A stretch of 39,088 nucleotides of DNA from a virus. Location: the IMG/VR virus record IMGVR_UViG_3300034374_007952, positions 1 to 39,088 of that record, one strand, 5' to 3'. Below the pieces are notes generated by a model that had not been told where the DNA came from, did no database searches, and was given only the letters and a program-made list of their open reading frames with translations. Made by a program: the position numbers and the translations under genes. Shown here piece after piece: positions 14,664 through 19,204 of the stretch (within the stretch, counting starts at the first letter, position 1; each line of letters starts with the position of its first letter).

Positions 14664-15848
14664 ATGTCGTCAGCAAATTTAGTGCGATTAACAGCAATCG
14701 AAGAAACAGTTTACGGTGAAACACCTGTGGCTGGAAATTTTAAAACAGCAAGATTCACTTCAGAAGCTCTATCGGGTACACCTGATACGAGTGAATCTCA
14801 AAGTATCAGGACGGATCGGCTCTCTTCAGGACAAGTTGTAGTAGGCTTAACCGTTGGCGGTGATGTAAACTCTGAACTTGCCAAGGAAGATATTACAGAC
14901 GACTTCATCGAATCAGCAATGTATTCATCATGGGATGCTAAAGCTCCTGTCGCGGTTGATTTAACAATCGATACCACAGCAAAAACTATTGTTAGGGCCG
15001 CAGGTGACTGGACTGTTGATGTTGAAGTAGGAGATGTTTTAACACTTACTGCTTTTGCTGACTCCAATAACAACACCGAAGTAATGGTTACTGAAGTTCA
15101 AAACGCTACGACTATTAGATTCTCTGGACCTGACACAATGGTTGATGAAGTCGGCGTAGGTACTTCATATCAAATCGCTGACGAGATTGAGATTGGTATT
15201 ACTCAAAAATCTTTCTCAATGGAAAAAGCATTTTTAGACCTTACTGACAAGGCCATCAATTATCGAGGTATGATTGTTTCGACAATGAACCATAGTGTGA
15301 CTTACGGTGAAATCGTAAACAGTACATTTGGTTTCCAGGGCAACGACTATCAACCTGTAGAAGCTGCTGCCAATTTCATAACAGACGGTAGGACAATCGA
15401 TAGCCCTGCCACAAGTAACTCACTCAACGGTTCCGTTGATATGCCTTTTTTGATCAATAATGCAAGTGGAACTTTAGATACTTCAGATTTTTGTATTCAG
15501 TCAGTTGACTTAAACCTCAATAATAACGCAACAGCCCAGACATGTGTGGGACAAGCTGCCCCAGATTCATATAACGCGGGTACTGCACAAATTGAAGTAT
15601 CTTTGACAGCTTATCTTGCCAACGAGAACTGGGCCATGTTAGCAAAGAAACTAACTCAAGACCCTATTTCTCTAGGGTTCATTGTAAAAAATTCAGATGG
15701 TTTCTACGGATTCTTTCTTCCTGCGGTGCAGCTATCGTTTGAAGACCCTGCGTCAACTGGGATCAACCAAGATGTATTTTTAAATATGACAGGTGTAGCC
15801 AAAGTTGGCGCAAGTAACGAGAAATCGCTTAAAATGTTTAGAAGTTAA
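14664..15848 (+). CDS. Major tail tube protein
   Basis: The 394-residue product is a tail tube protein of the Phage_tube_2 type. The start is typical: ANLVRLTAIEETVYGETP, then FTSEALSGTPDTSESQSIR. Next come the DRLSSGQVVVGLTVGGDVNSEL segment and a long beta domain with FQGNDYQP and SFSMEKAFLD. The C-terminal third, with SLTAYLANENWAMLAKKL, closes the second barrel. Length is within the two-domain range for the family. The ATG follows an AAGGGAG site. It is separated from the chaperone gene by a 110-base gap with a long hairpin, so expression may be tuned independently. Confidence 0.88.
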   Translation: MSSANLVRLTAIEETVYGETPVAGNFKTARFTSEALSGTPDTSESQSIRTDRLSSGQVVVGLTVGGDVNSELAKEDITDDFIESAMYSSWDAKAPVAVDLTIDTTAKTIVRAAGDWTVDVEVGDVLTLTAFADSNNNTEVMVTEVQNATTIRFSGPDTMVDEVGVGTSYQIADEIEIGITQKSFSMEKAFLDLTDKAINYRGMIVSTMNHSVTYGEIVNSTFGFQGNDYQPVEAAANFITDGRTIDSPATSNSLNGSVDMPFLINNASGTLDTSDFCIQSVDLNLNNNATAQTCVGQAAPDSYNAGTAQIEVSLTAYLANENWAMLAKKLTQDPISLGFIVKNSDGFYGFFLPAVQLSFEDPASTGINQDVFLNMTGVAKVGASNEKSLKMFRS

Positions 15849-15860
15849 TTTATAAGAAAA

Positions 15861-15920
15861 GGTTTCAGGGAGGTCGGCCCTAACATCTGCTCGATCTTCG
15901 TCTACGACTTCTCTGAAACC
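15861..15920 (+). other. Long intergenic hairpin after the tail tube gene
   Basis: Positions 15861-15875 pair with 15906-15920 over 15 positions, including two G-U pairs, around a 30-base loop. This is most of the 110-base gap between the tube and chaperone genes. There is no run of T after it, so it is not a standard intrinsic terminator. An mRNA 3'-end stabiliser or a processing site is more likely. Confidence 0.7.
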
Positions 15921-15958: not shown

Positions 15959-16357
15959 ATGAAATCAAATCTTCACAGTTTTTACGCAACAAATGGTGAC
16001 ATGGAATCTTCTGGAATCTGGTTTAGAATTTCTGAAGAATTACAATTTAGAGTACGTCGATTCGGTGGCAAGAACTCGGACAAAGTTAGACAGGCCATCG
16101 CAAAATATAACAAACCATATACCCTTCAAATTCAAAAAGGAACTCTAGACCCTGACCTAGAAACAGAACTAATGACGAAAGCTTTTGTCGAGTCGTGTTT
16201 GACTGATTGGAAAGGTGTAGAAATTGACGGTGAACCTCAAGAATTTTCAACTGAAAAGGCGATTGAACTTTTAATCGAACTTCCAGAATTGACAAATGAA
16301 TTAATCGCTCACGCACAAAAAATAGACAACTACAAAGTAGAATTGGGAAACTCTTAG
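15959..16357 (+). CDS. Tail assembly chaperone, gpG-like
   Basis: The 132-residue product is the short form of the tail assembly chaperone. It lies between the tube and tape measure genes, the invariable place of the lambda G/T pair. The sequence is acidic and helical, with FRISEELQFRVRRFGGKNSDKVRQAI in the middle and a C-terminal helix rich in Glu and Leu. It would bind the tape measure protein before tube polymerisation. The ATG follows an AAAGGA site. Its last codons contain the slippery sequence, so a fraction of ribosomes make the longer gpGT protein. Confidence 0.87.
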   Translation: MKSNLHSFYATNGDMESSGIWFRISEELQFRVRRFGGKNSDKVRQAIAKYNKPYTLQIQKGTLDPDLETELMTKAFVESCLTDWKGVEIDGEPQEFSTEKAIELLIELPELTNELIAHAQKIDNYKVELGNS

Positions 16358-16683
16358 CGACCTACTTAGAGTGGCAACTCAAGTGGGGAAATAAACTAGA
16401 GTTCTATTATAGTCTACTTCAACGTGGGAAAATAAAGGAAGGGGCCGAAGAACCTAATATAGGACCTTTTAGTATTTACCTAGAGTATTTCTTTGAGCTA
16501 GATACCTGTAGAAACGGTATGTCTAATGGGCCAATTCCTTTTACTGACATACATAACTTTGCTACGATTAAAGGGATTCAAGACTTTGACGAGTTTCTTT
16601 ACTTAGTGCGAAAACTCGACGATATTATTATAAAACATCGAGATAAAGATAATGGCCCCTCCAAAGCAAACAAGAGTAATTGA
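15959..16683 (+). CDS. Frameshifted tail assembly chaperone, gpGT-like
   Basis: A -1 shift on the heptamer G GGA AAC at 16345-16351 joins residues 1-131 of the gpG-like protein to an open frame running from CTC at 16351 to TGA at 16681-16683, giving about 241 residues. The T part reads LLATYLEWQLKWGNKLEF and ends after FLYLVRKLDDIIIKHRDKD. It has no independent start of its own at the right place and overlaps the tape measure gene by 32 bases, as in lambda. In lambda the G-T fusion bridges the tape measure and tube subunits. The frames, heptamer register and position agree fully. Confidence 0.9.
16345..16387 (+). promoter_or_regulatory. Programmed -1 frameshift signal
   Basis: The slippery heptamer GGGAAAC (16345-16351) sits in X-XXY-YYZ register with the gpG frame. 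Nine bases later a hairpin spans 16361-16387. CCTACTT (16361-16367) pairs with AAGTGGG (16381-16387), with one G-U pair. After one bulged A, GAGT (16369-16372) pairs with ACTC (16377-16380) around GGCA. The zero-frame stop TAG lies at 16355-16357 inside the spacer. All elements of a standard signal are present. Confidence 0.93.
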
Positions 16684-19204
16684 TATTAAAGTCATCTCTA
16701 CTGGAGATGGAACACTCAGAAAAATATCAAGCGAAATGGGGAAGCTTAATCGTAACGTTAAGCGAGCTTCACAAGGCCTAGGGAGACTTCAGAACGCCTT
16801 TAGAGGTTTCATCGCTGCTTTCGGTGTGAGAGAGATTGCAAAGGCCGCAGACGAGTTTCAATTATTAGAAGATAGAATTGCAGTTTTTACGGGTTCTAGT
16901 GAAAAAGCTAGAGATGTATTTGGACAGATACGTGCCGCCGCCGCTGCTACCAGAACTTCAGTCGCATCCCTTGGTGAAATCTACAACAGGGTAGCTTTAT
17001 CAACTGAGGAACTTGGTTTAAGTAGTGAACAAGTCGTAGCGGTTACAACAGCTTTACAGCAAACCTTTAGGTTATCAGGTTCTACCATAGCGGAAAGTAC
17101 CGCCTCAACAATCCAATTGACGCAGGGTTTAAGTGCTGGCGCACTGCGTGGTCAAGAATTACGCTCGGTGTTAGAATCCAATGCTGTATTTGCAGGAATA
17201 CTTTCTGAAGAGTTAAACGTTGCTAGAGGTGACTTAATTAAATTCGCTGAAACAGGCGGGATCACAAGTGAAAGAGTCCTTCAAGCATTGGCCAAGAACT
17301 TTGATGAAATAAACAAAAAAGCTGGACAATTAAGAATTACTTTCGAGCAAGCTGCTACTTTAGGCTTGGATAGATTAAAGCAAGCGGTTAATGAACTTAA
17401 CCAAGAGTTTGGGATTGCTTCTAAATTCGCCAAAGGTGTTGAGTTTACTGTTGATAATTTAAAAGAGTTGTTCGGTATAATTGCAGGGTTTGTAGCAAGT
17501 AAAGCATTGGTTAGATTAGGTGAACAACTCCAAACTTTTACACTTGCTTCAGCTTCGGCCAAATTCCTTAGTTCCGCGAACGCTTTAACCGCTGCTTTAG
17601 TAGGTTTAGGTTTCGCTGCTGCCAAGGCAAATAAAGCAAGTAACGAGGCGTTAGCTTCTGAAACATTATTGCAAAGATCGACTAGACTAACTAAAGAGAT
17701 TAAAACTCAAAGTGAGTTAATAGCGAATATTAGGAAATTACCTAACACTGGTGAGTTTATAGGTAGCGATGAGCAAATTAAAAAAGGTGAAAAAAATCTT
17801 ACGCTTTTAAGAAGACAATTAAAAGAAACTAGGCAATTACTAGATCAAGGTTTAACAGTTGACCCTAAAACTTTCAAAGGTAGCCCAACCGATATTCTAA
17901 AAAACGCCGCCGCCGATTTAGACAAAGCAACTTTAAACTTCGAGAAAGGTGTACCGACACTTAAAGAATTAAATACTTTATTCATCGCTAACAGGATCAG
18001 CGTTGAAGAATACGACAAAGCTTTAAACAAACTTCAAATAGACAAACTCAACGAGTCCTTCAAGAAAGGCACTATAGATCGTAAAGACCTTGTAAAAGGT
18101 CTTAAAAAACTAGCTGACGAATTAAACAAAAGTGAAGTCACTAAAACTCTTACGGACATTAATGCCGAGTTTAGGAAAACTGGTGACGTAGATAAGTACA
18201 ATAAAGCGTTGCTAAGATTAGACACTGATCAACTCAATGACTCGTTTGACAGAGGTGAAATAAGACTAACTAAATTAAACAAAGGTCTTAAAAAATTAGC
18301 CGATGAAATTAGAAAGAACAAATTAGGTTTAACTTTAAAACAATTGAATCAACAGTTCAGTTTGACTGGTGACATTGATAGTTACAACGAATCTATACGG
18401 GCCATAAACTTAGAAAAATTAAATCAAGACTTCAGAGAAGGTATCATAACAGTAGATCAATACAGACAAGGTTTAATCGAATTAAAAGGCGAAGCGTTTA
18501 ATTTAGAATCAGCTTTCCTTGGTGTTCAAGATGGGTTAAACAGAGTCGCTAGAGATGCAGGTAACGTAGCGAAACAAGTATCTAACGGTATCCAACAAGC
18601 TTTCTCTAGATTAGAAGACTCGATAGTTGAGTTTACCAAGACTGGGAGATTTGAGTTCTCTAAATTTACTCAAGATATATTGAGTGACATAAACAGAATT
18701 ATTATTAGGGCCGCAATTATAGGACCATTGGCCAATGCTTTAGGTAGAGGTTTGTTCTCTGCAAGTGCAGGTTCACCTCAAACAATACAAAACAACGTTG
18801 GACCTTCAGCACCAAGTAACACCGCTTTTGCCGCTAACGGTATGGCGCTCAGGGGTGGTAACATAATACCTTTCGCTACTGGCGGTATCGTAACAGGTCC
18901 GACATTATTCCCGCTTAACGGTGGACGCACAGGTGTCATGGGTGAGGCGGGTGCCGAGGCAATCGTTCCTTTGAGAAGGGGTCGTGGTGGACGTTTAGGT
19001 GTTGATGCTTCAGGTGCAAGCAACGTTCAAGTAAATGTAATCAACAATACCGGAAGTGACGTAGACACTCAGGAAAGAATAAGCTCTGACGGAAGCAAGA
19101 TATTAGACATTGTTATCGGAAACACCGTTAGAGATGGTTTAGCTAACGGTGAGTTTGATCAAAGCTTCGGTGAGATATTCGGACTTCAACGACAAGGTAG
19201 ATAA
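16652..19204 (+). CDS. Tail tape measure protein
   Basis: This 850-residue protein sets tail length. Residues 1-260 match the phage tape-measure N-terminal domain (SGSTIAESTASTIQLTQGLSAGALRGQELRSVLE). Residues 270-330 are hydrophobic helices that probably enter the host membrane during ejection. Residues 437-613 hold three copies of a 60-residue unit. Residues 655-700 resemble the lambda gpH C-terminal region (FTKTGRFEFSKFTQDILSDI), and residues 761-775 carry GVMGEAGAEAIVPL, a common C-terminal signature. The ATG overlaps the gpGT frame. At 850 residues the tail would be moderately long, near 120-130 nm by the usual 1.5 Angstrom-per-residue rule, which is only a rough guide. Confidence 0.94.
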   Translation: MAPPKQTRVIDIKVISTGDGTLRKISSEMGKLNRNVKRASQGLGRLQNAFRGFIAAFGVREIAKAADEFQLLEDRIAVFTGSSEKARDVFGQIRAAAAATRTSVASLGEIYNRVALSTEELGLSSEQVVAVTTALQQTFRLSGSTIAESTASTIQLTQGLSAGALRGQELRSVLESNAVFAGILSEELNVARGDLIKFAETGGITSERVLQALAKNFDEINKKAGQLRITFEQAATLGLDRLKQAVNELNQEFGIASKFAKGVEFTVDNLKELFGIIAGFVASKALVRLGEQLQTFTLASASAKFLSSANALTAALVGLGFAAAKANKASNEALASETLLQRSTRLTKEIKTQSELIANIRKLPNTGEFIGSDEQIKKGEKNLTLLRRQLKETRQLLDQGLTVDPKTFKGSPTDILKNAAADLDKATLNFEKGVPTLKELNTLFIANRISVEEYDKALNKLQIDKLNESFKKGTIDRKDLVKGLKKLADELNKSEVTKTLTDINAEFRKTGDVDKYNKALLRLDTDQLNDSFDRGEIRLTKLNKGLKKLADEIRKNKLGLTLKQLNQQFSLTGDIDSYNESIRAINLEKLNQDFREGIITVDQYRQGLIELKGEAFNLESAFLGVQDGLNRVARDAGNVAKQVSNGIQQAFSRLEDSIVEFTKTGRFEFSKFTQDILSDINRIIIRAAIIGPLANALGRGLFSASAGSPQTIQNNVGPSAPSNTAFAANGMALRGGNIIPFATGGIVTGPTLFPLNGGRTGVMGEAGAEAIVPLRRGRGGRLGVDASGASNVQVNVINNTGSDVDTQERISSDGSKILDIVIGNTVRDGLANGEFDQSFGEIFGLQRQGR
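17960..18490 (+). repeat. Three protein-level tandem repeats in the tape measure
   Basis: Residues 437-494, 499-556 and 560-613 share the pattern LNxxF..(T)GD(I/V)DxYN(K/E)AL..L..(D)xLNxSF(K/D)(K/R)GxI, then a KGLKKLADE(I/L) helix in the first two and QGLIELKGE in the third. Unit length is about 61 residues. DNA identity is lower than protein similarity, so the duplication is old. Confidence 0.8.

Follow-up and report, generated by a model that had tools for sequence, protein, structure and literature searches.

A very probable programmed −1 frameshift yielding two tail assembly chaperones, and a candidate stimulatory hairpin, in a phage genome

The window analyzed here is the whole virus record IMGVR_UViG_3300034374_007952 (39,088 bases), with the genes, slip site, stop, and adjacent hairpin described below all on its plus strand. 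A G/T gene pair in two overlapping frames sits between the tail tube gene (14664–15848; PF18906 Phage_tube_2, E = 2.4e-31) and the tape measure gene (16652–19204; PF20155, E = 2e-40, and PF09718, E = 1.2e-18). Gene G (15959–16357) opens with the ATG at 15959, closes with TTG GGA AAC TCT TAG, and encodes in 132 codons the zero-frame product, a 132-aa tail assembly chaperone matching the families phrog_313 (E = 1.4e-22) and phrog_8233 (E = 1e-18); no Pfam family, lambda's included, matched the G part above cut-off. As the initial annotation had proposed, the heptamer GGGAAAC (16345–16351) is in exact register for a −1 tandem slip, i.e., it is read G_GGA_AAC, and the zero-frame stop TAG (16355–16357) begins 3 nt later. 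A 7 + 4 bp hairpin, the candidate stimulator, follows at 16361–16387. Counted from the heptamer, the −1 frame (the T part, 16345–16683) comprises 112 codons, namely GGG, AAA, and 110 more, before the TGA at 16681–16683, so that the earlier count of 110 open codons, running into the tape measure gene, was exact for the portion past the slip. This T part scored above the curated threshold of PF23812 Phage_TAC_18 (29.6 bits, cut-off 27), matched phrog_3817 (E = 5.3e-12), and also matched phrog_8233 further along that profile (positions 187–251 of 271, E = 6.9e-5).

Two further features flank the pair. The end of the T frame overlaps the start of the tape measure gene (ATG at 16652) by 32 nt, and with that start lying 32 bases ahead of the T end (16652–16683), translation of both may be coupled. 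Upstream, a 16-bp hairpin between the tail tube gene and G (15861–15920), as stable as which 8 of 200 shuffles folded, could shape expression between these two genes; Stenotrophomonas phage Sonora has an annotated terminator at the matching position.

The slip site stands out within the window. Across the 33 listed plus-strand ORFs (10,476 codons), 73 in-register XXXYYYZ heptamers were found, and only GGGAAAC at 16345 has a −1 frame that extends beyond the stop of its ORF. Comparison with L023, a 60%-identical relative, indicates which frame is coding: over the initial 60 codons of T, the two sequences differ 17, 10, and 31 times at codon positions 1, 2, and 3 of the −1 frame, which carries 16 synonymous and 20 non-synonymous codon changes. 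The same bases give 2 synonymous and 35 non-synonymous changes when read in the zero frame, and 9 and 32 in the +1 frame. The −1 frame of the T part is thus coding.

We evaluated conservation of the signal in two sets of relatives. With tblastn, G matched 297 phage records at E ≤ 0.01 and T matched 24 at E ≤ 0.1, every one at <60% identity; of the 14 GenBank records fetched, four have joined chaperone products and one has no annotation. The joined (j2) products are those of Sonora, RcSimone-Hastad, RcRudolph, and Siara, and are noted as frameshift products in Sonora and Siara. Searches with single proteins yielded solely two other public contigs, which are identical to the window from the tail tube gene through the end of the tape measure gene and hence carry no information on conservation, and a scan of genome contigs with P0001 found no relative. 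Among alignment-based searches, the diversity of a 14-member alignment (A1) made it unsuitable as a query, and a 7-member subset (A2) worked. The resulting first, wider set held 92 other loci (13 GenBank phages, 78 IMG/VR loci, and L023), from which 12 duplicates and one locus without a stop (L083) were dropped to leave 79 distinct relatives, with L016 outside the count. The second search started from alignments of the subclade to which the window belongs and yielded 51 distinct relatives, of which the last few are distant. The two sets share five members, L027–L030 and L023, the last being the contig of L131 and having the same sequence as L130 around the stop.

Overall, 75 of the 79 distinct relatives in the wider set carry a heptamer in register no more than 90 nt from the G stop, with ≥99 open codons behind it in the −1 frame (in L038 this frame runs to the contig end). 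The heptamer is GGGAAAC in 45 of them, AAAAAAC in 24, and another sequence in 6, although one of these six, L034, has GGGAAAC too; the stop directly follows the heptamer in 48 of the 75. The four exceptions retain T open in the −1 frame. At the G stop, L070 and L076 have A_AAA_GAC before the stop and L031 has A_AAA_AGC, while L080 shows no recognizable slip site there and retains a T-like −1 frame. In the subclade set, a mechanical scan found a heptamer in 51 of 51 relatives, with a complete long −1 frame behind it in 49. The heptamer of L144 opens only three codons, yet a T-like frame follows its stop, and in L158 the −1 frame is cut by the contig end.

With the signal, its register and conservation, the coding −1 frame, the family matches, and the gene order established, we infer the slippage itself, along with its rate, the effect of the hairpin, and the role in assembly. 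Programmed −1 ribosomal frameshifting very probably makes two tail assembly chaperones from this one gene; we consider the frameshift close to certain because nearly all relatives of both sets (75 of 79 and 49 of 51) keep the heptamer and the long open −1 frame behind it. Under this mechanism, most ribosomes would read GGA AAC TCT TAG and release gpG (132 aa), while a small fraction would slip back by one base on G_GGA_AAC, their tRNAs re-pairing with GGG AAA. The slipped ribosomes would bypass the TAG and continue in the −1 frame as far as 16683, for a predicted gpGT of 131 + 110 = 241 aa. By analogy with lambda, G would coat the tape measure protein, the T domain would recruit tail tube subunits, and the G:GT ratio would matter.

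Two other routes to a T product were weighed against ribosomal slippage. T might be made as a separate protein, through internal initiation or reinitiation after the G stop and without any frameshifting, as the separate "tail chaperonin" gene annotated with a start downstream of the G stop in several GenBank relatives would have it. We consider this very unlikely: the T frame contains no ATG, GTG, or TTG between 16300 and 16519 (ATT codons are present), so an internal start would lose most of the first 58 T residues, and conservation of the heptamer would go unexplained. Still less probable is a change of frame by transcriptional slippage on a homopolymer, with the ribosome playing no part. 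The run of six A in the AAAAAAC of 24 of the 79 relatives would suit such a process, but transcriptional slippage generally needs longer homopolymer runs, and the window offers runs of three G and three A only; in addition, relatives with either heptamer type preserve its register and its nearness to the stop.

Given a frameshift at the heptamer, the next element to consider is the hairpin. Folding of 16352–16400 returned the structure described in the initial annotation, at 16361–16387 after a nine-base spacer, with 7 bp, a one-base bulge, 4 bp, and a 4-nt loop. The fold has an energy of −14.2 kcal/mol, and 3 of 200 dinucleotide shuffles were equally stable; for a longer, 76-nt fold, 9 of 200 shuffles were as good. 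As the null for folding we permuted synonymous codons of the T frame while keeping the protein, a null that is less clean in relatives whose stop lies 24–51 nt past the heptamer, since the permutation there also touches zero-frame coding sequence. Across five 40-nt windows at offsets 0–12, 36 of 4000 such permutations reached −14.1 kcal/mol in any of them, while a 54-nt window gave a weaker result (p = 0.053).

The same null was applied across the family. In the wider set (61 clusters), the mean z at 3 and 6 nt past the heptamer was −1.59 and −1.64, respectively; it was about 0 at 24 nt and mostly between 0.1 and −0.4 elsewhere save for a second dip at ~60 nt. These values, like the counts of representatives given for this set, include L034 folded from a second, unlikely heptamer instead of its GGGAAAC. 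The excess structure in this set begins 0–9 nt after the heptamer and is strongest in the first 10 nt, with z ≤ −1.5 near the heptamer in 40 of 61 representatives vs 15 of 61 at control offsets 24–30. For the subclade, L144 and L158 were left out before folding, and the mean z over 43 clusters was −1.11 (se 0.23) at 4 nt past the heptamer against a background that is not flat, with further dips at 96 nt (−0.71) and 240 nt (−0.62). Of the 43, 22 pass near the heptamer, compared with 10 and 9 at two groups of control offsets.

Whether these structures share one register was evaluated from alignments. RNAalifold detected no common structure in alignment A3, i.e., the 51 of the 75 relatives that align without gaps. 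Alignment A6 covered 44 of the 52 subclade sequences (41 distinct, window included; L144, L158, and L175–L180 left out), and part of the subclade keeps the window's register: across the 44 sequences, 71% of cells were paired for the window's own outer seven pairs, compared to 31–48% when the register was slid, and 61% were paired when this outer register was extended to 13 pairs, compared to 34–46% when slid. The covariation scores of the 13-pair and outer-seven registers were reached by 2 and 6 of 500 shuffles, while pairs changed on both sides were no better than in shuffles (172 and 199 of 500). Pairing in the subclade is partly fixed by conserved codons.

Taken together, a hairpin after the slip site looks favored, and not accidental, in this virus group. 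In the window it probably slows the ribosome over the heptamer and thereby raises slippage. We hold this role with reserve because L023 and L027 lack a hairpin just after the heptamer (as judged by folding), there is no RNAalifold consensus, covariation is modest, and pairing is partly codon-fixed. The earlier description of the hairpin as a candidate stimulator therefore remains plausible and is statistically favored (36 of 4000), without extending to all relatives. A possible though less likely reading is that the frameshift is real and the hairpin has no role in it: the rate would be set by the heptamer, either by itself or together with the nearby stop, and the hairpin would be a by-product of the sequence. 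The two hairpin-free relatives and the missing consensus fit this reading as well, as does the lack of clear structure just past the heptamer in 21 of 62 cluster representatives (window included), whereas the rarity of an equally stable fold among protein-keeping permutations of the window and the family mean z of about −1.6, peaking within 10 nt of the heptamer, speak for a stimulator. One point counts against the frameshift as such: in E. coli, A_AAA_AAC is much less slippery than A_AAA_AAG, according to the sections consulted of PMC5009743, from which we would expect that a C-ending heptamer may rely more on a stimulator.

Beyond the adjacent hairpin, a second long hairpin within the T coding sequence, ~62–99 nt past the heptamer, was seen in L010, L014, L085, L097, L102, L104, L007, and others; Acinetobacter phage HD01 is among the phages with such a site. 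The mean z at offset 60 was about −1.0 over the 61 clusters, with 27 of 61 representatives at or below −1.5. When sequences were folded one by one, the two commonest registers (offset sums 161 and 156) started near +62 in 13 and 7 of 51 sequences, the rest being scattered; another register considered for this hairpin was wrong, with 39.5% of its cells paired. The window has no second hairpin, and for its subclade the mean z falls just slightly at this offset (−0.41, se 0.18). The signal for pairing of the two hairpin loops with each other was only weak (z = −0.44, se 0.13).

On the other side of the slip site, Shine-Dalgarno (SD)-like 4-mers are concentrated 10–12 nt upstream of the heptamer (46 in 62 representatives). 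We take these sites as mostly protein-driven, since little excess remains after codon permutation (z = −0.53, se 0.11), with 1 of 62 reaching p = 0.05 alone. A strong SD-like site was found upstream in 36 of the 62 representatives, 21 of which also have a hairpin. The hairpin-free L023 has an SD-like site; the window has none upstream of its heptamer, its best anti-SD duplex reaching −0.6 kcal/mol. The relation between SD energy and hairpin z (Spearman −0.33, p = 0.009; −0.22, p = 0.08 with SD z; both uncorrected for kinship) points to a trade-off. One could imagine a modular RNA signal setting the family's frameshift, made of the heptamer, the adjacent hairpin, often an SD-like site, and, in many members other than the window, a second hairpin at ~62 nt. 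This second hairpin could hold frameshifted ribosomes so that those queuing behind them back up as far as the slip site, with feedback on the G:GT ratio; alternatively, it could pair with the first hairpin. We regard this scheme as speculative and rather improbable.

The window's site is a member of the lambda G/GT-type tail chaperone frameshifts, i.e., of a known kind. The initial label "lambda G-T type" applies to the arrangement and the likely mechanism and does not extend to sequence homology with lambda gpG, as G has no Pfam match above cut-off. In both systems, overlapping frames located between the genes for the major tail protein and the tape measure encode two forms of the chaperone. 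The lambda heptamer is GGGAAAG, whereas that of the window ends in C, and the window has a clear hairpin downstream. The portions of PMC5009743 at hand describe for lambda, as proposed here, a −1 slip near the end of G and a fused long form, with a G:GT ratio of about 30:1, G binding the tape measure protein, and T binding the tube protein. Two genes of a phage tail assembly chaperone cluster similar to that of HK97 show 6 and 7% frameshifting (PMC3711429, in part).

Closer relatives are the Stenotrophomonas phages Sonora and Siara, the Rhodobacter phages RcSimone-Hastad and RcRudolph, and Pseudomonas phage M6, which have homologous G and/or T with the tail tube gene upstream and, like the window, GGGAAAC in register, at a G identity to the window of 28–33%. 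Unlike the window, Sonora, Siara, RcRudolph, and M6 have an extra tail gene between T and the tape measure gene, and Sonora, Siara, and M6 have the second hairpin; the stop comes 30 nt after the heptamer in Sonora and 39 nt after it in M6, vs 3 nt in the window. The three-part −1 signal of E. coli dnaX, comprising an SD-like site, a heptamer, and a hairpin (PMC3711429, sections consulted), offers a further comparison: the window shares the heptamer and has the downstream hairpin, and differs in having no SD-like site about 10 nt upstream.

A previous search for downstream structure over a range of window sizes and offsets gave ambiguous results (PMC10885494, in part), and the consulted portions of PMC5009743, PMC10885494, and PMC3711429 contain no statement that hairpins are general at tail chaperone frameshift sites, nor any of a second hairpin. 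Within this analysis, novelty may lie only in the excess of structure across the family and in the second hairpin.

For this phage, the analysis adds the long tail chaperone to the annotation, and the site is a clean one for testing what sets the G:GT ratio. The question of stimulators in tail chaperone frameshifting can be tested with natural pairs that have and lack the hairpin, e.g., the window and L023. Averaged over both sets of relatives (61 and 43 clusters, with five members in common), RNA structure immediately past the slip site exceeds what the protein requires.
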